From: Gammaproteobacteria bacterium
Lineage (GTDB): Bacteria > Pseudomonadota > Gammaproteobacteria > Chromatiales > Chromatiaceae
Length of the DNA: 33,761 bases
Direction: 5' to 3'
Assembly (NCBI GenBank): GCA_018812525.1
Contig: JAHJDE010000122.1
Location: forward strand, 1 to 33,761
The position numbers and the translations under genes were made by a program. Every line of letters starts with the position of its first letter. Position 1 is the stretch's first letter. The notes under the pieces are model-generated. The model did not search any database, was not told the DNA's origin, and worked only from the letters and a program-made list of their open reading frames with translations. Below, one piece after another: positions 1 through 33,761 of this stretch.

Positions 1-140
1 AAATGGCCATCCTGGCCATTTTGCAAGGCGAAAACGAAAAATGCGATTTTTCGTTTTCTTCATTTTCAATGGCTTAGGCCATTGAAAATGGCGGTTCATC
101 CCTGAACCGCAAGAGGTTCTTGCAGTTTTGCAAGAACCTC
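1..140. repeat. Five-hairpin palindrome array, modules A-E
   Basis: Five perfect hairpins lie end to end. A is at 1-21 (9-bp stem, loop TCC; it may extend left of the window). B is at 30-58 (12-bp stem GAAAACGAAAAA). C is at 61-90 (13-bp stem CATTTTCAATGGC, loop TTAG). D is at 91-110 (8-bp stem GCGGTTCA). E is at 113-140 (12-bp stem GAGGTTCTTGCA). The same modules recur at 327-447, 23115-23198 and, in reverse order, 33532-33683. No open reading frame with coding character covers the stretch. It is best read as a non-autonomous palindromic mobile element; a transcript would fold into a row of stem-loops. Confidence 0.85.
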
Positions 141-319
141 AGATTCAGGTCAGATTTGGTCGATCTGATTGAGCAAAACCGCCTATTTTCGCGGCAGAGC
201 CGCTCCCACCGCCGTGGGAGCGGCTCTGCCGCGAAACAGATCGATTGAAGATCGGCCAAAGATGGCCTGAAGAATGAGATGCGAGATGTACAAGTTATTT
301 CCGGACAGTTCCTTAGGCT
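141..319. repeat. Palindromic MITE-like element (family I), left end missing
   Basis: The element holds a 23-bp perfect stem with 4-base loop at 187-236 (arms begin TTTCGCGGCAGAGCCGCTCC), a small hairpin GGCCA-TGGCC at 254-267, and the terminal sequence CCGGACAGTTCCTTAG at 301-316. The same element is near complete at 20471-20730 in inverted orientation and partial at 8061-8184 and 33484-33761. The big hairpin is two head-to-head REP-like units (GTGGGAGCGGCTCTGCCGCG). The left terminus is missing where the preceding hairpin array abuts. Confidence 0.8.
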
Positions 320-8014: not shown

Positions 8015-8184
8015 GTAGGAGCGCCTTTAGCCGCGATGACTTTGAGTTTCGCGGATGAAGCCGCTCCCACCGCCGTGGGAGCGGCTCTGCCGCGAAAATA
8101 GGCGGTTTTGCTCAATCAGATCGACCAAATCCGACCTAAATCTGAGCGCGATATTGTCCAACTTATTCCCGGACAGCTCCTTAG
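8015..8184. repeat. REP cluster fused to half of a family-I element
   Basis: A REP (GTAGGAGCGCCTTTAGCCGC, 8015 onward) is followed by an inverted REP (8049-8070) and another (8075-8095). The sequence then runs into the family-I right half (ATAGGCGGTTTTGCTCAATC) and ends GGACAGCTCCTTAG at 8171-8184. The whole stretch fills the gap between the two LapA-like genes. It carries the uninterrupted version (as CTAAATCTG) of the site that is occupied by an insertion at 33528-33687. Confidence 0.8.
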
Positions 8185-8197
8185 TAATCTCCACCTC

Positions 8198-11100
8198 CTA
8201 AGGGGTCCCTCCGTTATTGTTCGGGTCCTCCACCAGCACGGTGTGGATGGAGACATCCACATAGAGCATGGCGCCATTATCGCCACTGTAGGCGTGGTAG
8301 TCGGTGTTGTCGATAGTTGTGGTGCCGTTGTCGGTCCATTCGCCCTTGTCGATGTTGACCGCGTTGCTGGTGTCGCCATTGATGAAGAGGCAGTGGTTGC
8401 TGTCGGTCATGTCGACCACATCCTGAAGCGACAGGGAGACGCTGTCCTGGCTGCCCAGCTTCAGAATCTCGATGTTATCCACCCGATTGGCGAGGACAGT
8501 GAGGTCGATGGTGTCCTCGAAGAAGCCGCCCATGTCCAGGCTGTCCTGGCCCTCGCCGCCGTCGATCTTGATGAAGTCGTCGAGGCCGGTCAGGTCGCTG
8601 TCCAGCGCGAAGCTATCGTTGCCCGCGCCACCCTGGGCCTCGTCGCCCTGGCCGACCACGAGGCTGTCGTCGCCCGCGCCGCCGTGCAGGCTGTCGCCGC
8701 CCGCCTGGCCGTCCAGGGCATCGTTGCCCGGCCCGCCGGCCAGGAGGTCGGACCCGCCGCCGCCGTGCAGGTCGTTGCCGGCGGGGGCGCCGAGGATGAT
8801 CTCGTCGTCGGCGTCCCCGGCCGGGTTGAGTTCGACAATCGGGTGCAGGCTGCCGATGTCGTAGGTGTCGGCGTCCGCGGCACGGGTGGCCGGCAGGTCG
8901 CTCGGGTCGATGGTCTGGTCGAGCATGACCAGGTCGCCCTCGCCCGGACCCATGCCGGAGAAGTTGTCGCCGGCCTTGACCGTATAGGCCACCAGTTCCT
9001 GGTCGGGGTAGTGCTGGTCGATGAACTCCTTCACCTCGACGGAGAAGACATCGTCCGGGAAGCCCTCCAGCTTCACCTTCATGAGCACGTCGTGGTCGGC
9101 GATGGCCGCCAGGTAGAGCACGATGTTGGAGATGCCATGCCGGTTCTCGATGCAGGGCATGGGTGCCGGTGGCGGCGGGGTCTGGCCCAGGGTCAGGGTG
9201 AGCTGCGACCGGACCTGATCGCCGTCGCCGTCCACGATGCAGTAGGGGATGGTCAGGGATTCGATGCCTTCCAGGGAGCCGAACTGGACCACGCTGTAAC
9301 CGCTCTCACCGCTCGTGAACTGCGGGTCGGAGAGGCTGACCTTGATCAACGGGATGCCGTCGCGGCTGCCGATGAGATCCAGTCCGTCGCCGCTCACCGT
9401 CCAGCTCAGGCCGTGGGTGTCGCTGCCAAAGGCGCCGACATGGCCGCTGTCCCAACTGAAGGGCAGGGCGCCGCCGTCCGCTCTGGGTCCGGCGCCATCG
9501 GCGGGGCCGTCGGCGCCGAAGTGATGCGAGAGGGTGGCGTCGCCGCCGATGGTCAGTTCGACCCCGGTCTGGGAGGCGGTGCCCACCAGCACATCGGCCA
9601 ACTGGGCCAGATCGACCACCTCTATCACCGGGTGGGGTGCGGTGCCCACACCGGCGATCTCCTCCAGGCTGCCCCGTTCGTTGCCGTCCACGTCCACGGC
9701 ATCGCCGATGCCGATGGCAAAGACATGGTCGAAGTTGTCCGGCGCCCAGGACTGCCAGGTGGGCAGCAGGCCGCTCTGGCCGTCGCTGCCGTCCATGTCG
9801 CCCTTGGTGGGGTTGCCGTCGGAGACGAAGTAGTAGACGTTCTGATCGGCCGTGGGCTGATTCAGGTTGCTGTGGTCCATGGTCTCTTGCAGGGCATCCT
9901 GGTAGTTGGTCCAGCCGCCCGCATGGAAGCCATCGACCTCGATCTTGGCCCCGTCGGCATCATGCCAGTCACTGGTGGTGGCATTGGCGTCTGTGGCGAA
10001 GGGCACGAAGAGGACGTTGACCGTACCCATGGCCTCATAGCTGTCGATCAGTTCCTTGACCGCGTTCTGGGCCAGCAGGAGCTTGGTGTCGTTGCCGTCC
10101 CTGTCGCCGTCGCCGTCCACATCCACGCCGGCCTGTTCGCTCATGCTGCCCGAGATGTCGAAGGCGATGACCAGGTTGGTGGCGATGCCCAGGGTCTGGG
10201 TCTGGACCGAGGCAGTCGTGGGTGCCGCGATCTCCGGGATGTCGTCGGCGATGGTGATGTTGATGACGCCAAGGGCGGTGTCATCGTCCGCATCCTGCGC
10301 CCTGACATAGAGTTGCAGGCTGGCGAGGGCATCCTCGTCGGGATTTTCCGGGTGGTCCACCACATCCTTGAGTTCGAGCCTATAGGTCTGGTCCGGGTTG
10401 AGGGTCGCGCTGAAGACGACGCGGCCATCGGCCAGGCCGTTGACCAGGGTGTCGCTGACGACTTCAAGGACCACGGGTCTGCCCTGGGAGGTCAGCCCGG
10501 TGTCGAGGCCGTGTTGGCTGCCCAGGAACACCAGGGAACCGGGGCCGTTGGCGCCGAAGTTGACATGGAGGTCGCCGGTGGTGACCTTCACCGTCGGGTA
10601 GGCGTCCAGGTCGGCGGTGCCGAGCAGGGCATCCTCGTCCACCACGGCCGCGTCGGGGGCGATGGTGGGGGCCGTATCGGGATGGCACTCGGGCACCACC
10701 TTGAAGCCGATGATGTTGCTCAGCTTGTCGCCGTCGTCCACCTGGACCTCGAAGTTGCGCAGGCTGGTGTCGGCGTCGTCGGCATCCAGGGTGATCGACT
10801 CGATGGCCTGTTCATAGACCGCCTTGGTGGCGGGGCCTTCCAGGGTGATCTTGACGATACCGGGGGTGCTGGCATCGACGGTGACGGCCAAGCCCTGGGC
10901 GTCCGCCACGGCCAGCAGGTCGCCGGTGCTCGCGTTGGTCAGGGTGATGAAGGCCCGTTCGAGATTGAAATCGTCCACGTCGGAGAGGCTGATGTCCTTG
11001 ATGACCTCGCCGTTCTCGCCCTGGGTGTGGCAGAGGTCGAACTTCATGACGAAGTCGTCGTAGTCCCGGTCGCTCTGGCCGGGGCCGTACCAGCCGCCGG

Positions 11101-16045: not shown

Positions 16046-19000
16046 CTAATACACTGTTGTTCGCGGCGTCTGCGTCTGTGGCACAGGTGTCAGTATCTGT
16101 CCCTTGATCTGCGGGGGTTGGGGACGTATCTCCTTCAGTTCGTACTTGGGCTGAATCCGATGCAACTTGATCGGCTCCCTCGGTGCTGTTTCAATTTTTC
16201 TGCAATTAGGCGGGGTGCCGACGGTGCCGCTCGGGCAGCGCCTCTCGATGGTTCTGCAATTGGGCGGGGTGCCGACGGTGCCACGCGGACAGCGCCGCTC
16301 GATGGTTCTGCAATTGGGCGGGGTGCCGACGGTGCCGCTCGGGCAGCGCCGCTCGATGGCTCTGCAATTGGGCGGGGTGCCGACGGTGCCGCTCGGGCAG
16401 CGCCGCTCGATGGCTCTGCAATTGGGCGGGGTGCCGACGGTGCCACGCGGGCAGGGCTTCACAATTGTTTTGCATTCGGGCCAGATGCCGAGGGTACCGG
16501 GCGGGCAGGTTTGTTTCCTTTTGCAGCTGATGCCGCACGCAATCGACTGCGGTTGAGCGCCGGCCGGGCAGATACATTTGTTGTCTCTCAAGTTGCCGCC
16601 AACACACTCCATCTTGCGGACACAGGGACCGCCGGTTACCAGCCGCTGCTCGCAGGGTCCACATTGCGTATCCCGCACCGGTTTGCAGGCGATTCCGCAG
16701 CTGGTCGACAGTGCCTGAGTCCCCTTCGGGCAGTAGCACTGGTTCCCCCGCAGGGAGCCACCGAAGCAGTCGGTGTAGCGCTCGCATACCTGGGTCCTCG
16801 GGTTGCGCCGCTCGCAGGGGCCGCAGGGTTTCGGTCTGGATCGGGCGCAGAAGATGACCCGGTTGTCGCGTGTCAGTTTGGTCCACTCCCAGCCCTGGGG
16901 GATCTGTGCGGCGCTACGATATTGCGTCCATCCCGCCGGGCATTGAATGGGTGGCGGCGGTACCGGGGTGACCGGAGGCTTCTTGCCGATGGTTGTGGAG
17001 ACGCAGCTCCGGTTGTTCTTCATGTTGGGGTCAGCGAACAACCGGCTGCTGGGTTTGCGTCGCCCTTCGGTGGAGATCTGTGGTTGATTCGTATCCGTTA
17101 TGGCCCCTACGGAGGCTGCTTCGGCGCTGGTGACCAGGCCGGCCAATAACCGGTCCAGGACCCGCCAGGGCTCCAGGCTCCCCTGATTGATCTGGGGGAG
17201 GTGGGAGGTCAGCCATGAACAGTTCTCCATGGGCCTCTGGTCCTCGGGGATACCACTTGGCAGCCGCAGGCTGATCTCCAGGGTGATGGATGCGCCCGGC
17301 GCCAGATTGACGGGGCCGTTATGGGTGCAATCGTATCCGCCACCCGCGGCCGCACAGTTCCAGCCGGGCGACCAGCTTTCCAGGGTAAGCCCCCCCAGTC
17401 CCGCCGGCAGGTCGCGCACCTGAAGGGGGCCGTTGTAGGCGCCGGGGCCATGGTTGGTGATGGTCACCCGGTAGCTGCATGTCCCGCCGGGCGCACAGCT
17501 CAGGGGGCCGGTTTTCTGGAGTGAGAGATCCGGCCCGGGATCGGCGATCTGGGCAAGGGGTACGGGGAATGCGATGGGCGCGCAGTCCCGGTTGTTGCCG
17601 TTGGGGTCGCCGAGGTGCTCTGGCGCACCCAGTTCTGCGCAGTTCTCGCCCTGGGTCACATTGGGCGGTACCCAGACCCAGACATCGATCCATTGCAGGG
17701 TACCTGCTGGTATGTGCACATTGGGATGGAAGCAGTCGAAGCCGCCTCCTGCCGGTCCACACCCGATGCCGCCGAGACCAAGGCTGTTGTCGGCCAATCC
17801 CCCAAACAGGGTGCCGGGCGGCAGGTCGTCATGGATATGGAGCGGGCCGTGGTAATCGACTCCGCTGTCGTTCCTGATGTCGATGCCGAACCGGCACCAA
17901 TGCCCTCCTCCGGGCGCGAGGGTGCAGTCAAAGAGAAACTTGTCGATGGAGAGATCCGGCCCCGGTCCGGGTCCATGCCCCGGTATTCTTACCCTGGCAC
18001 AGTCACGGTCATTGGAGTCGTCGCAATCAGCGTGCAGGGCAGACGAACCGATGAACAAGGCTGCCTGGGCCGCAGCCAGGGTACCGGTTCCGGGCGGGGT
18101 GCCGAGCAGTTGATCGATGGCGTGCTGGGTTGGATCAAGGGGATTTCCCGGGAGGTAGAGACCGTCTACATGCACCCAGTCGAGCAGTCCCATGAAGGCC
18201 AGCCGTGATTCGACCCAGTAGACCTCCCAGGAAGCGCCGGGTGGGAGTACCACTCCCGGAATGGGGCCAGGGTCGTTGGGCCAGATAATGCGGATACAGT
18301 TGTCGTAGGTTCCCGGCGGGGCGCCGGGCGGCAAAATGAGTACCAGGTCAAAGCCGGTGGTGGCTCCGGGCGGGAGCGGGCCGGTGGTGCCCGGGTCGGA
18401 AACGCAGGAGATATGCCCGCCGGGTCCGCCGAACTGATGGCAGCTCCAGCCGGGGGGTGGCGGCGGCGGGGGACTGACCAGAACGGCCCCCGGCGGTGGT
18501 ATGTCAAGCAAGTGAATCGGTCCCAGGTAGGGATTGCCGCTGACATTGGTGATGCTGACGTGGAAGACGCAGGGGGCGCCGGGCAGGCACTCCTCCTGTA
18601 CCGGTGTTTTCTCGATGCGCAGGAAGTCGAGGGGGCAGGCCTCCGTCGGGGGCGGGACATACCACCCCGGCGGCCACCAGCCGGGCATAGGTATCCCCGG
18701 AGTTCCTGTACCACAGGGTTCATAGATCTCCACATCGCCAATCTTGGTGGCGTCGTTGCGGACGAGTTCCTCGGGGATGGGATTGCCCGCCGCGTCCACA
18801 TTGATATCGGCATCGATCATGTAGGAGTTACTGGGGCCATCGGCCGGCAGGGGTGCCGGGGGCGTGATATCGGCCATCCGTTCCAGGGGTGTGCCCTGTA
18901 TGCCATGCACCTGGCTGGTGTCGGTAAAGGCATTGGCGGAGGGATCGAAGCAGAGTCCATCGGGGGAGCAGAGGGAGTCGCCGGTCATCCAGAGGAATTG

Positions 19001-20341
19001 GTCGGGCCGGCCCCGGTCGATGGTCCAGGAGTCGTTGTAGGCAAAGCCGAAATCGATACCGCCCGAGGCGTTGGCGCGGATGAGGGGGGGGTCTGCACGC
19101 TCACGGAAGCCGACATCGTAGCGACCCTCCGGCTGCCAGACGCCGCTGGCATCAAGCCGGTAGCGCAGAGCCCGTGATTCGTGCGGGGTGGCGAAGGGAT
19201 TCTCGGCGTCCAGGCCCAGGTTACGCATGCCACCCCGCTCCGAGACGATCATGAGGTTTTGCTCGGTACAGTCCGGGAAGGCGATGTCGGCCACCGGGTG
19301 GCTCGGTCCGGCGCGCATGATGTCGGCGGGATCGGTGAAAAACTCGGGCAGGAAGAACTCGCGGCGGACGCTGGCGGTGTCGAAGGCGCCGCCGTCGTCG
19401 ATGCGCACCGACCAGAGCGAGTTGCGCTGCTCGTCGCCGGCCGCCGGCCATTCGGGATGGCCGAAGCCCTGTGAACCCCATACGGCATAGTAGAGCCGCA
19501 CCTCGTTCGAGGCATTGTCACGGCGAACGCCGACCCCCCAGACCCGGCGGCGGAAGTCGGCCAGGTTCCAGCAGGTGGGGGTGGCGGAGAATGGGCCGAA
19601 GGCGCAGTCATCGATGCGGGCGTGGGTGGCCGGGTTGAAGACCACGACCGGGAGGGATTGGGCGGCACCGGTGGTGGCGTCGAGGAAGTTGGCCCGGCCT
19701 TCGACGCCGTGGTCATAACGGCCCTGATCCAGGCCGTTGAGATCAAGGCGGTGGATCATGCCGGTCTCCAGATCGGTGACATAGAGCTGCCTGTGCCACC
19801 TGTCATAGGCGATGTTGCCCAGTGCCGCGCCGGTGTTGGCGCGGCCGTCCAGGGTGATATCGGCGAAACGCTCCGGCTGATAGTGAGTGGCGGCGGGGAG
19901 CTTCCAGACGGTGCCCGGCCCGGCGCCGGGTCCCCACATGCCGGGCATCCAGTCGGCATTGCCTGCCGTGCGGTGCAGGCCGAAGGCGGCGGAGGCCGTG
20001 AGGTAGACATTGGGGGGCGAGGCGCCGTCCAGGGCAACGCCGAAGACCTGCCCCACCTGGGCGGCGGTCACAGGTAATCGTTGCGGCTCGTTGATCCAGT
20101 GCTGGCCCTGGGGGGGCTGGCCCGGATTGCGGATATCGACGACAGAGCCGACGGTACCGTTGATATCGATGACCGTCTGGCCCGCATCAGTGGTGGTGCC
20201 CGCGAAGCGGGTCAGGTATGCCTCGCCGGGCTGCAGGGCGTCCTGCGCCAGCGATGTGCCGGTGGTGGCAAGAAACAATGAGAGGCTGATCAATAAACCG
20301 CTGATCAGTCTGGCCAGGGTCGATTCGAGACGTGGTTTCAT
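16046..20341 (-). CDS. Secreted DUF11-repeat protein with cysteine-rich tandem-repeat tail
   Basis: The 1431-residue protein starts with a Sec signal peptide (MKPRLES..., hydrophobic core LISGLLISLSLFLATT, likely cut after TSLA). The roughly 500-residue N-terminal region has propeller-like stretches (GNIAYDRWHRQLYVTDLETG) and is otherwise unrecognised. Three DUF11-type Ig-like domains start near 571 (LRIEKTPVQEECLPG), 794 (PDLSIDKFLFDC) and 938 (PDLSLQKTGPLSC), each with DLPPG-like motifs. From about 1128 the chain is cysteine-rich (CGPCERR..., CYCPKGTQ). It ends with five near-identical 18-residue repeats CPxGTVGTPPNCRxIERR (about 1291-1381). ATG 20341 is preceded by GGGGGATGGAAAG. An upstream in-frame ATG at 20383 would place the signal sequence internally. 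Probably surface-exposed; function unknown. Confidence 0.82.
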   Translation of the reverse strand: MKPRLESTLARLISGLLISLSLFLATTGTSLAQDALQPGEAYLTRFAGTTTDAGQTVIDINGTVGSVVDIRNPGQPPQGQHWINEPQRLPVTAAQVGQVFGVALDGASPPNVYLTASAAFGLHRTAGNADWMPGMWGPGAGPGTVWKLPAATHYQPERFADITLDGRANTGAALGNIAYDRWHRQLYVTDLETGMIHRLDLNGLDQGRYDHGVEGRANFLDATTGAAQSLPVVVFNPATHARIDDCAFGPFSATPTCWNLADFRRRVWGVGVRRDNASNEVRLYYAVWGSQGFGHPEWPAAGDEQRNSLWSVRIDDGGAFDTASVRREFFLPEFFTDPADIMRAGPSHPVADIAFPDCTEQNLMIVSERGGMRNLGLDAENPFATPHESRALRYRLDASGVWQPEGRYDVGFRERADPPLIRANASGGIDFGFAYNDSWTIDRGRPDQFLWMTGDSLCSPDGLCFDPSANAFTDTSQVHGIQGTPLERMADITPPAPLPADGPSNSYMIDADINVDAAGNPIPEELVRNDATKIGDVEIYEPCGTGTPGIPMPGWWPPGWYVPPPTEACPLDFLRIEKTPVQEECLPGAPCVFHVSITNVSGNPYLGPIHLLDIPPPGAVLVSPPPPPPPGWSCHQFGGPGGHISCVSDPGTTGPLPPGATTGFDLVLILPPGAPPGTYDNCIRIIWPNDPGPIPGVVLPPGASWEVYWVESRLAFMGLLDWVHVDGLYLPGNPLDPTQHAIDQLLGTPPGTGTLAAAQAALFIGSSALHADCDDSNDRDCARVRIPGHGPGPGPDLSIDKFLFDCTLAPGGGHWCRFGIDIRNDSGVDYHGPLHIHDDLPPGTLFGGLADNSLGLGGIGCGPAGGGFDCFHPNVHIPAGTLQWIDVWVWVPPNVTQGENCAELGAPEHLGDPNGNNRDCAPIAFPVPLAQIADPGPDLSLQKTGPLSCAPGGTCSYRVTITNHGPGAYNGPLQVRDLPAGLGGLTLESWSPGWNCAAAGGGYDCTHNGPVNLAPGASITLEISLRLPSGIPEDQRPMENCSWLTSHLPQINQGSLEPWRVLDRLLAGLVTSAEAASVGAITDTNQPQISTEGRRKPSSRLFADPNMKNNRSCVSTTIGKKPPVTPVPPPPIQCPAGWTQYRSAAQIPQGWEWTKLTRDNRVIFCARSRPKPCGPCERRNPRTQVCERYTDCFGGSLRGNQCYCPKGTQALSTSCGIACKPVRDTQCGPCEQRLVTGGPCVRKMECVGGNLRDNKCICPAGAQPQSIACGISCKRKQTCPPGTLGIWPECKTIVKPCPRGTVGTPPNCRAIERRCPSGTVGTPPNCRAIERRCPSGTVGTPPNCRTIERRCPRGTVGTPPNCRTIERRCPSGTVGTPPNCRKIETAPREPIKLHRIQPKYELKEIRPQPPQIKGQILTPVPQTQTPRTTVY
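16200..16469. repeat. Five tandem 54-bp repeats in the DUF11 gene
   Basis: Units start at 16200, 16254, 16308, 16362 and 16416, each beginning CTGCAATT(A/G)GGCGGGGTGC on the plus strand. A degenerate sixth unit follows to about 16520. On the minus strand they encode an 18-residue unit with two cysteines (CP[RS]GTVGTPPNCR[ATK]IE). The copies are almost identical at DNA level, so the number probably varies by recombination or slippage. Confidence 0.92.
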
Positions 20342-20470
20342 CTTTCCATCCCCCAAGATATTGGTCGCACGTATTGCAAACATAGTCCCGTTTTTCCCGG
20401 TCGTCCGGAATTTTTTGAGGCCTGGAAGTGCCTGAGACTGCGTCGATTGGGCGATTCGGGGGAAGAGAAT

Positions 20471-20730
20471 CTTAGGAACTGTCCGGAAATAACTTGTACA
20501 TCTCGCATCTCATCTTCAGGCCATCTTTGGCCGATCTTCAATCGATCTGTTTCGCGGCAGAGCCGCTCCCACGGCGGTGAGAGCGGCTCTGCCGCAAAAA
20601 TAGGCGGTTTTGCTCAATCAGATCGACCAAATCTGACCTAAATCCGAGCGCAATATTGTTCAAGTTATTTTTGCTCGACGCCTAAATCTGAGCGCGATAT
20701 TGTCCAACTTATTTCCGGTACAGCTCCTTA
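20471..20730. mobile_element. Family-I palindromic MITE-like element, both ends present
   Basis: About 260 bp. The left end is CTTAGGAACTGTCCGGAAAT and the right end is the near-inverse (ATTTCCGGTACAGCTCCTTA). A near-perfect long hairpin of two REP-like arms lies at about 20551-20597. The right arm contains a tandem duplication (20637-20680 and 20681-20717, each starting CCTAAATC). No coding capacity, so it would depend on a transposase elsewhere. The final TTA (20728-20730) is the stop codon of the adjacent ypjD-like gene read on the minus strand. Confidence 0.8.
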
Positions 20731-21543
20731 CCGGACCAATATCAGCTCCAGTACCACCTTGCTGCCGAAGTAGGCCAGCATCAGCAGGAGGAAGCCGATC
20801 AGGGTCCAGGTGATGGCGGTGCGGCCGCGCCAGCCGAAACGAAAGCGGCCCCAGAGCAGGACGGCGAAGCTGACCCAGGAGACGAGGGAGAGGATGGTCT
20901 TGTGGACCAGGTGCTGGGCGAAGAGGTTCTCCAGGAACAGGACGCCGCTCAAGAGCGCCAGGCTGAGCAGGAAGAAACCCGCGCCGATCATCTCGAACAG
21001 CAGGCTCTCCATGGTTTGCAGCGGGGGCAGGGCACGGATGAAGCCGCCCGGGTGGCGGTTGTGCAGGTGCCGGTCCTGGATGGCCAGCAGGGTTGCCTGG
21101 ACGGCGGCCAGGGTCAAGAGGCTGTAGGCCAGGAGGGAGATCAGGATGTGCAGGTTCAGGCCCAGGGACTCCGAATCATGGAGCAGCCGCAGATGGGGAA
21201 AGCGAACGGCCAGGATCATGGTGATCCCGGCGCCCGGCAGCAGCAGGATGCCCAGGTTCTCGACCGGCTTGGTCAGGGCGGAGAGCAGCAGCAACAGGAC
21301 CATGGTCCAGGCTACCAGTGCGGCGACGGTGAAGATGCTGAGATTGAGACCGACCGGCGTAATCAGCTCCCCATAGAGGGCCATCGCCTGGAAGAGAAGT
21401 GCGACGAACCCCAGGCCGATGCCCAGCATACGGGGTGGGGTCCGGCGGTCTGGGAGGGCGAACAGGCGCAAGGCGATGGCGAGGCCCCCGCCGAAAAAGA
21501 AGAGAATGGAGAGGATGGCGAGCAGGTTGATTTCCGTGGTCAT
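20728..21543 (-). CDS. ypjD: YpjD/CcsA-like inner membrane protein
   Basis: The 271-residue protein has about eight membrane helices. It matches the YpjD/HemX branch of the cytochrome c assembly (CcsA) family, with conserved histidines in LNLHILISLLAYSLLTLAA and QHLVHKTILSLVSW. Relatives handle haem or cytochrome c assembly, or (YpjD, also called CorE) are linked with CorB/CorC-type ion handling; the exact role is unproven. A gene of this family next to ffh is a common gammaproteobacterial arrangement. ATG 21543 (MTTEINLLAILS) is preferred; an upstream start would add 17 hydrophilic residues. The stop codon TAA coincides with the end of a palindromic element. Confidence 0.85.
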   Translation of the reverse strand: MTTEINLLAILSILFFFGGGLAIALRLFALPDRRTPPRMLGIGLGFVALLFQAMALYGELITPVGLNLSIFTVAALVAWTMVLLLLLSALTKPVENLGILLLPGAGITMILAVRFPHLRLLHDSESLGLNLHILISLLAYSLLTLAAVQATLLAIQDRHLHNRHPGGFIRALPPLQTMESLLFEMIGAGFFLLSLALLSGVLFLENLFAQHLVHKTILSLVSWVSFAVLLWGRFRFGWRGRTAITWTLIGFLLLMLAYFGSKVVLELILVR

Positions 21544-21701: not shown

Positions 21702-23060
21702 ATGTTCGACAATCTGACGCAACGCCTCAACAAAGTGGTCGCCACCCTGCGCGGCCAGGCCCGGCTCACCGAGGACAATATTAAGGATAGCCTGCGCGAG
21801 GTGCGCATGGCCCTGCTGGAGGCCGATGTGGCCCTGCCGGTGGTCAGGGAGTTTATCGAGCGGGTGCGGGAAAAGGCCCTCGGCGCCGAGGTGCTGCAAA
21901 GCCTGACGCCGGGGCAGATGCTGATCAAGGTGGTCCATGGCGAACTGATTCACCTGATGGGCGATGCCAACGAAAGCCTGAATCTGGCCGTCCAGCCCCC
22001 CGCCGTGGTGCTGATGGCCGGCCTGCAAGGCTCCGGCAAGACCACCAGTGCCGCCAAGCTGGCGCGCCGCCTGATCCAGACCGAGAAGAAGTCGGTCATG
22101 CTGGTGAGCTGTGATGTCTACCGCCCGGCCGCCATCAAGCAGTTGCAGACCCTGGCCGGGGAGATCGAGGCCAACTTCTTCCCAAGCTCGGCGGACCAGA
22201 GCCCCATCGCCATCGCCCGCGCCGCCCTGGCCGAGGCGCGCAGGCGATTCATGGACGTGCTCATCGTCGATACTGCCGGCCGGCTCCATGTGGATGCCGC
22301 CATGATGGCGGAGATCAAGGAACTCCACACCGAGATAAGGCCGGTCGAGACCCTCTTCGTGGTCGATGCCATGACCGGCCAGGATGCCGCGAACACGGCC
22401 AAGGCCTTTGGCGATGCCCTGCCCCTGACCGGTGTTGTACTGACCAAGGCCGACGGCGATGCCCGCGGCGGGGCGGCCCTCTCCGTGCGCCAGATCACCG
22501 GCAGGCCGATCAAGTTCATCGGTGTGGGCGAAAAGACCTCCGCCCTGGAGCCCTTTCACCCCGACCGCATCGCCTCGCGCATCCTCGGCATGGGCGATGT
22601 CCTCTCCCTGATCGAGGAGGTGCAGCAGAAGGTCGATCAGGAACAGGCTGTCAAACTTGCCAAGAAGCTGCAAAAGGGCAAGGGCTTCGATCTGGAGGAT
22701 CTGCGTGACCAGTTGGGGCAGATGATGAACATGGGCGGCATGGCCAGCCTGTTGGATAAGCTCCCCGGCATGGGCAATGTCCCGGACGCAGTGAAGAATC
22801 AGGTCAACGACAAGGAGATGCGCCGCCAGATCGCCATCATCAACTCCATGACCCCGCATGAGCGCCGCTTTCCCGACATCATCAAGGGCTCCCGCAAGAA
22901 GCGTATTGCCATCGGCTGCGGGCTCCAGGTGCAGGAGGTCAACAAACTGCTCAAGCAGTTCCTGCAAATGCAGAAGATGATGAAAAAGATGAAGGGCGGC
23001 GGCCTGCAAAAGATGATGCGCGCCATGGGCGGCAAGATGCCGCCGGGGATGCCCTTTTAG
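21702..23060 (+). CDS. ffh: Signal recognition particle protein Ffh (SRP54)
   Basis: The 452-residue protein has almost the same length as E. coli Ffh. It contains the N domain (MFDNLTQRLNKVVATLRG), the GTPase G domain with P-loop GLQGSGKTT, DTAGR, TKADGDARGG, and a methionine-rich M domain (QMMNMGGMASLLDKLPGMG, IAIGCGLQVQEVNKLLKQF) ending GGKMPPGMPF. It binds 4.5S RNA and signal sequences and delivers ribosomes to FtsY at the membrane. ATG 21702 gives the canonical MFDNL start. The usual downstream rpsP-rimM-trmD-rplS cluster is absent; palindromic elements start immediately at the stop codon. Confidence 0.98.
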   Translation: MFDNLTQRLNKVVATLRGQARLTEDNIKDSLREVRMALLEADVALPVVREFIERVREKALGAEVLQSLTPGQMLIKVVHGELIHLMGDANESLNLAVQPPAVVLMAGLQGSGKTTSAAKLARRLIQTEKKSVMLVSCDVYRPAAIKQLQTLAGEIEANFFPSSADQSPIAIARAALAEARRRFMDVLIVDTAGRLHVDAAMMAEIKELHTEIRPVETLFVVDAMTGQDAANTAKAFGDALPLTGVVLTKADGDARGGAALSVRQITGRPIKFIGVGEKTSALEPFHPDRIASRILGMGDVLSLIEEVQQKVDQEQAVKLAKKLQKGKGFDLEDLRDQLGQMMNMGGMASLLDKLPGMGNVPDAVKNQVNDKEMRRQIAIINSMTPHERRFPDIIKGSRKKRIAIGCGLQVQEVNKLLKQFLQMQKMMKKMKGGGLQKMMRAMGGKMPPGMPF

Positions 23061-23200
23061 GAACCTCTTTCCGTCTCTAAAAATTCCAGGGATGGAATTT
23101 TTAGAGGTCCCCTTGAGGAACTTGCAAAATGGCCATCCTGACCATTTTGCGGTTCATCCCTGAACCGCAAGAGGTTCTTGCAGTTTTGCAAGAACCTCCT
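23061..23200. mobile_element. TTAG-flanked palindromic element(s) at the ffh stop codon
   Basis: The stretch lies between TTAG at 23057-23060 (its TAG is the ffh stop) and TTAG at 23201-23204. It contains a 14-bp perfect stem at 23075-23106 (CTCTAAAAATTCCA, loop GGGA), then a shortened hairpin array 23115-23198 made of modules A (one mismatch), D and E, lacking B and C. The first hairpin could also serve as an ffh terminator, though no T-run follows. Confidence 0.75.
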
Positions 23201-23204
23201 TTAG

Positions 23205-23364
23205 CCCGGATATTTCATAAATTGCCGTGATGATCGCGCCGGATTCTGATTCGCCAAGGAATTTTCTGAGTGAGCGCCGTATCGGGCTATACGGTCGAGC
23301 GAAGAAAATTTCTTGGCGGATCAAAGGACAAGCGAGGGCGCGGTGAATTTATGAAATATCCGGG
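23205..23364. mobile_element. 160-bp nested-palindrome element with 19-bp inverted ends
   Basis: Ends are perfect 19-bp inverted repeats, CCCGGATATTTCATAAATT (23205-23223) and its inverse (23346-23364). Inside are a 16-bp inverted repeat with one mismatch (23252-23267 and 23303-23318) and a central CCGTAT-ATACGG hairpin (23277-23294), so the whole element can fold into one long interrupted hairpin. TTAG lies immediately outside both ends (23201-23204 and 23365-23368). No reading frame. It differs in sequence from the other two families. Confidence 0.85.
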
Positions 23365-23371
23365 TTAGCAG

Positions 23372-33483: not shown

Positions 33484-33761
33484 TTAGGAGCTGTCCGGAA
33501 ATAAGTTGGGCAATATCGCGCTCAGATTTAGGAGGTTCTTGCAAAACTGCAAGAACCTCCTGCGGTTCAGGGATGAACCGCCATTTACAATGGCCTAAGC
33601 CATTGAAAATGAAGAAAACGAAAAATCACATTTTTCGTTTTCGCCTTGCAAAATGGCCAGGATGGCCATTTTGCAAGTTCCTCTTAGGTCAGATTTGGTC
33701 GATCTGATTGAGCAAAACCGCCTATTTTCGCGGCAGAGCCGCTCCCACGGCGGTGGGAGCG
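33484..33761. mobile_element. Family-I element interrupted by hairpin-array element
   Basis: Family-I left end TTAGGAGCTGTCCGGAAATA starts at 33484 and reaches CAGATTTAG at 33531. The hairpin array follows at 33532-33683 (152 bp) in the order E-D-C-B-A, the reverse of 1-140. Family I resumes with TTAG-GTCAGATTTGG at 33684 and runs off the window inside its large REP hairpin. Array ends are imperfect inverted repeats (GAGGTTCTTGCAAAA and TTTTGCAAGTTCCTC, 13 of 15). TTAG flanks the insert on both sides. Confidence 0.85.

Follow-up and report, generated by a model that had tools for sequence, protein, structure and literature searches.

Bacterial MITEs normally lie between genes, and one of them, QMITE2, occurs mainly in 3' untranslated regions, according to a published review (PMC10969869). 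In pneumococcus, 36 BOX copies are reported to lie at the very 3' tip of a gene and to supply its stop codon, with no obvious shortening of the gene (PMC3049150); MITEAba12 is reported to carry stop codons in all frames (PMC6382973). The palindromic repeat described here, family A, resembles prokaryotic MITEs as that review (PMC10969869) presents them, namely as short, non-coding, mostly intergenic and sometimes nested sequences with inverted repeats, target duplications and stable hairpins, and differs from them in that its 3-bp TAA/TTA duplication can coincide with a stop codon. With the BOX elements (PMC3049150) it shares the tolerance of gene tips, the two being compared by placement only; unlike BOX, family A has six cases in which the target duplication itself rebuilds the stop. 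Gene-tip tolerance is already known, and the rebuilding of a stop through duplication of 3 bp illustrates it neatly; we found no description of such rebuilding in the open-licence papers searched.

The window, i.e. the whole stretch of 33,761 nucleotides that was analyzed, corresponds to contig 206 in a draft genome of 3.5 Mb, which comprises 215 contigs and has 61% G+C. The first-pass annotation had read the TTA at 20728-20730 as the stop codon (TAA) of ypjD, and this proved correct: the duplicated TAA of a family-A element is the stop codon of the gene. The features at this locus are as follows.

20472 to 20474, plus strand: left copy of the target duplication, TTA
20475 to 20727, minus strand: family-A MITE of 253 bp, with the L end at 20475 and the R end at 20727, toward ypjD
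20728 to 20730, minus strand: target duplication, whose minus-strand reading TAA is the ypjD stop codon
20728 to 21543, minus strand: ypjD-like gene (named so in the first-pass annotation), full length relative to its relatives

Read on the minus strand, ypjD ends with ...GTCCGG-TAA, the TAA occupying 20730-20728, and the element begins at 20727. The L end reads GGAACTGTCCGGAAATAA; the R end, GGAGCTGTACCGGAAATAA, carries an additional base. An internal duplication lies near the R end of this copy, the usual length in the family being about 208 bp. The predicted fold of the element is a single long hairpin (-131.9 kcal/mol, z -13 versus 200 shuffles). The closest named relative by the ypjD protein (89% protein identity) is the MAG Gammaproteobacteria bacterium RIFOXYD12_FULL_61_37 (L129); there the gene stops at the same codon, with TAG (GGCCGGTAG vs GTCCGGTAA), so the position of the ypjD stop is native.

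A 20-base end pattern with at most 3 mismatches had 79+75 matches in the genome versus 1+1 for the reversed control. The census of family A covered 1.26 Mb, or 36% of the genome, where 148 raw ends were reduced to 135 by discarding 13 that were unlike the repeat; these 135 ends belong to 100 elements, 35 of them with both ends. The element is a foldback with GGARCTGTCCGGRAATAA as terminal inverted repeats at both ends, and 25 of the 35 paired copies are 206-210 bp long. TAA or TTA precedes 116 of the 135 ends (TTA in 65, TAA in 51); the base before TAA is C in 33/51, and the following base is G in 40 of the 64 cases where it could be read. Identical 3-bp duplications flank 21 of the 35 pairs, and the other 14 are discordant, including one that has no flank on one side because it lies at a contig start. 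No transposase was seen in the long-spaced cases that we looked at.

At two sites (C8:8184 and C172:14174) the flanks, once joined, match a continuous stretch of the sister genome, that is, an empty site, which demonstrates mobility of family A. Of the 38 genomes searched, all except its own lack the family, the same-genus genome among them. A search for the end pattern across 369 genomes of the class yielded, apart from the own genome, only two with a match, one each. One of the two (in genome G181) is a lone match inside an open frame and was taken as chance. The other, in the gammaproteobacterium G240 (L222:1361-1521), is a lone MITE-like element about 160 bp long; its paired ends are similar to those of family A, and one of its TTA duplications serves as the TAA stop of a long open frame.

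By its repeats, duplications, empty sites and short length without coding sequence family A is a MITE, and it is a new sequence family within prokaryotic MITEs. REP/RAYT repeats by definition lack a target duplication; family A has such duplications and we rejected this identity. Members of the IS1031 and IS5 subgroups of the IS5 family use TNA or YTAR targets. The TAA/TTA duplication and the GG-starting inverted repeats of family A would fit a parent of the TNA type. No parent with these ends was found. A search of the draft genome with three Pfam transposase families did not reveal such a parent: DDE_Tnp_1 gave two weak matches without family-A ends, and DUF4096 and DDE_Tnp_1_2 gave none.

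These data are probably explained by a lineage-specific burst of a non-autonomous MITE of the DNA-transposase type. Direct observation covers the ends of the element, its target duplication, the sequence context and the lack of copies in the sister species; for the transposase class and the cut-and-paste chemistry we infer the most likely assignment. Insertion would take place at TAA/TTA, with C-TAA-G as the favoured context, and would duplicate these three bases. In a genome with 61% G+C, a TAA/TTA where insertion is tolerable would be either in non-coding DNA or a stop codon. After insertion at a stop, either one TAA would stay in frame or TA and the first G of the element would make TAG, and in both cases the protein would be unchanged. 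The few genes that enter an element in another frame end five codons in, at a TAA borne by the element end. Almost all insertions inside genes are missing and have presumably been lost by selection.

To count coincidences with stop codons we used gene calls from a home-made gene finder (1064 genes in the full sample). Of the 135 family-A ends, eleven touch or overlap the stop of a gene transcribed toward them: in six cases the duplicated TAA is the stop, in four cases TA and the G of the element form TAG, and in one case (C148) the flank is TAG. The latter flank is neither TAA nor TTA and the case was excluded from the test, leaving 10 of 116 ends (6/51 TAA ends and 4/65 TTA ends). At the lowest gene-call threshold, all TAA/TTA sites would predict 1.7 such cases versus the 10 observed, a sixfold rate; when only non-coding or stop-overlapping sites are allowed, the unweighted expectation is 3.4, a threefold difference (p 0.002); and when the same sites are weighted by the base before and the base after, 6.2 are expected (p 0.093). 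With stricter gene-call thresholds the context-matched null gives 10 observed versus 5.2 expected (p 0.034) and 8 versus 3.5 (p 0.023). Only five of the 135 ends lie inside predicted genes, versus 42% of the context-weighted sites. The comparison of element positions with stops proposed in the first-pass annotation thus yields an excess over all TAA/TTA sites and only a weak one over context-matched sites outside genes. Since context weighting and the avoidance of coding sequence remove most of the excess, the target sequence and the loss of gene-damaging insertions explain most of it.

Any extra attraction to stops would be about 1.6-fold, or 2.3-fold under the strictest gene calls; the p values at the stricter thresholds leave room for a real but small preference. 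Could the integration machinery be actively drawn to gene ends, for example by translation termination or by mRNA 3'-end structures, beyond the context? The 10 coincidences against 6.2 expected (p 0.023-0.093 depending on the gene-call threshold) and the eight ends found 1-20 bp downstream of a stop, versus 3.6 expected, point in this direction. However, positions 61-150 bp away on the 5' sides of genes are over-represented as well (23 vs 13.2), indicating an excess near genes in general; most of the raw excess disappears with context weighting; and family B, another palindromic family of the same genome, has none of its 115 ends at a stop. Such active attraction seems improbable to us. Probably, an element at a stop is the expected outcome of target choice and purifying selection, with no special search for gene ends.

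Fifteen gene-end pieces, i.e. the ten stop cases besides ypjD and five cases inside genes, were sought in the same-genus genome G001. Matches were obtained for ten pieces, nine on the gene side; for C154 only the far side matched, and C33, C80, C90, C149 and C179 had no match in G001. The position of the stop is kept in C172 (TAG there, TAA here), in C8 (TAA in both) and in C170 (TGA there, TA+G here), which together with ypjD makes four cases with the native stop at the same codon. In C148 the stop is one codon off the sister's stop, and in C113 and C160 the C-terminus has diverged from that of the sister. Three of the cases inside genes could be read (C127, C187 and C203): the element was inserted 0 to 4 codons ahead of the stop used in the sister, and each of these genes now terminates at the TAA within the element end (GGA RCT GTC CGG RAA TAA).

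The same comparison bears on the idea that most coincidences are secondary, the insertion having truncated a gene whose new stop is mistaken for the native one. For the TA+G class this is possible, and the coincidences at C113 and C160, with C-termini unlike the sister's, may be truncations. As an account of most cases it is nevertheless hardly likely, since an in-frame TAA that was there before the insertion can only be a stop and the four cleanly aligned cases retain the native stop position. Target choice followed by purifying selection remains the preferred reading. The matched null and the element-free sister genome together indicate that a stop-like target triplet makes gene ends safe sites without any targeting machinery, and they caution that coincidence with a stop codon should not be read as function.

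The first-pass annotation had also suggested that the elements act as transcript 3' ends. This claim is unsupported: a scan for intrinsic terminators (a stem followed by a T run) found none in 20400-20800. A scan for sigma-70 promoters found none in the element either, and a search of Rfam gave no family above the curated score and only two chance-level matches. The orientation of the elements relative to genes is not random. The R end faces 36 gene 3' ends and 14 gene 5' ends, versus 18 and 31, respectively, for the L end (Fisher p 6e-4), in counts where both ends of one element may enter; with one vote per element the ratio is 53:28 (p 0.007; 81 of the 97 directed elements, those with unambiguous neighbours). 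The bias was found during exploration, in a single sample and for family A only. It is alike in both target orientations (31:18 and 17:9), and replication-strand bias was rejected as its source, there being no link with strand skew (46 vs 51).

These observations bear on whether the elements were retained for forming or protecting transcript 3' ends, as terminators or RNA stabilisers, a role proposed for some other bacterial repeats. The very stable full-length hairpin and the bias in orientation, independent of strand skew and absent in family B, speak for retention of this kind. On the other hand, there is no T-run terminator, gene 5' ends and gene 3' ends are faced almost equally often (50 vs 55 of 105 facing ends), and a recent burst would leave little time for co-option. 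We consider such retention unlikely. Equally doubtful is a design of family A for gene ends, in which the TAA target, the G-starting end and the in-frame TAA five codons in would serve as a harmless stop, and Rho-type polarity provoked by one strand, perhaps that of the L arm, which is rich in C and poor in G, would favour retention in one direction. The bias in orientation is a concrete hint, open to testing, that it matters whether these hairpins are transcribed.

Further elements of the window, including members of families B and C, are listed below.

138 to 312, minus strand: family-A fragment with the L end only; first base 312, TTA at 313-315
8059 to 8180, minus strand: family-A fragment with the R end only, beside the adhesin gene; TTA at 8181-8183
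23057 to 23060, plus strand: TTAG holding the ffh stop TAG (23058-23060)
23061 to 23114, plus strand: hairpin segment (about 50 bp), the only full-length copy in the 1.26 Mb
about 23115 to 23198, plus strand: shortened family-B element
23205 to 23364, plus strand: family-C element with ends CCCGGATATTTCAT, flanked by TTAG at 23201-23204 and 23365-23368
33487 to 33761, plus strand: family-A element truncated by the end of the contig; a family-B element is nested in it at a TTAG
33532 to 33683, plus strand: family-B MITE of 152 bp with ends GAGGTTCTTGC/GAGGAACTTGC, here with a TTAG duplication

Two more placements pointed out in the first-pass annotation were found as described. The ffh TAG (23058-23060) is inside a TTAG (23057-23060) next to another element, although the block adjoining this stop is not family A; L129 lacks the block of about 305 bp, and its ffh stop is directly joined to the downstream sequence. 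A third element lies 14 bp past the stop of the giant adhesin gene: the family-A end is at 8180, and 14 bases separate the duplicated TTA (8181-8183) from the stop (8198-8200).

In the whole genome a first look gave 247 family-B candidates, and the 40 that were scored are 96-97% alike, except for the window's own copy; the same-genus genome contains family B as fragments only. The 4-bp duplication of this family has no fixed sequence and is concordant in 20 of 33 full-length copies. None of 115 family-B ends is at a stop codon, and the orientation relative to genes is unbiased (20:19 and 21:22). An earlier, pattern-based set of family-B ends, in which 4 of 204 putative ends were within 2 bases of a stop, was discarded, as the palindromic L end had produced false inner ends. 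Placement at stop codons is therefore no rule for all palindromic elements. The proposal that stop-like targets permit harmless landing is borne out for family A, where duplication of TAA/TTA restores the stop and leaves the protein as it was, and fails as a generality with family B.

TTAG as a shared target was ruled out for family A, which uses TAA/TTA in the context C-TAA-G, and for family B. It may be the target of family C, a palindrome with CCCGGATATTTCAT ends whose flanks, read by eye in about nine places, some of them decayed, are TTAG, TTAA and CTAG; with YTAR, this family would fit the IS5 type. One copy of family C is nested in a family-A element (C33). Families A and B are nested in each other at 33487-33761 and at 1-447 and terminate the contig on both sides, and the fragmentation of the draft into 215 contigs is probably caused by these repeats. 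An array of 54-bp repeats occupies 16145-16562, within the minus-strand open frame 16046-20383.
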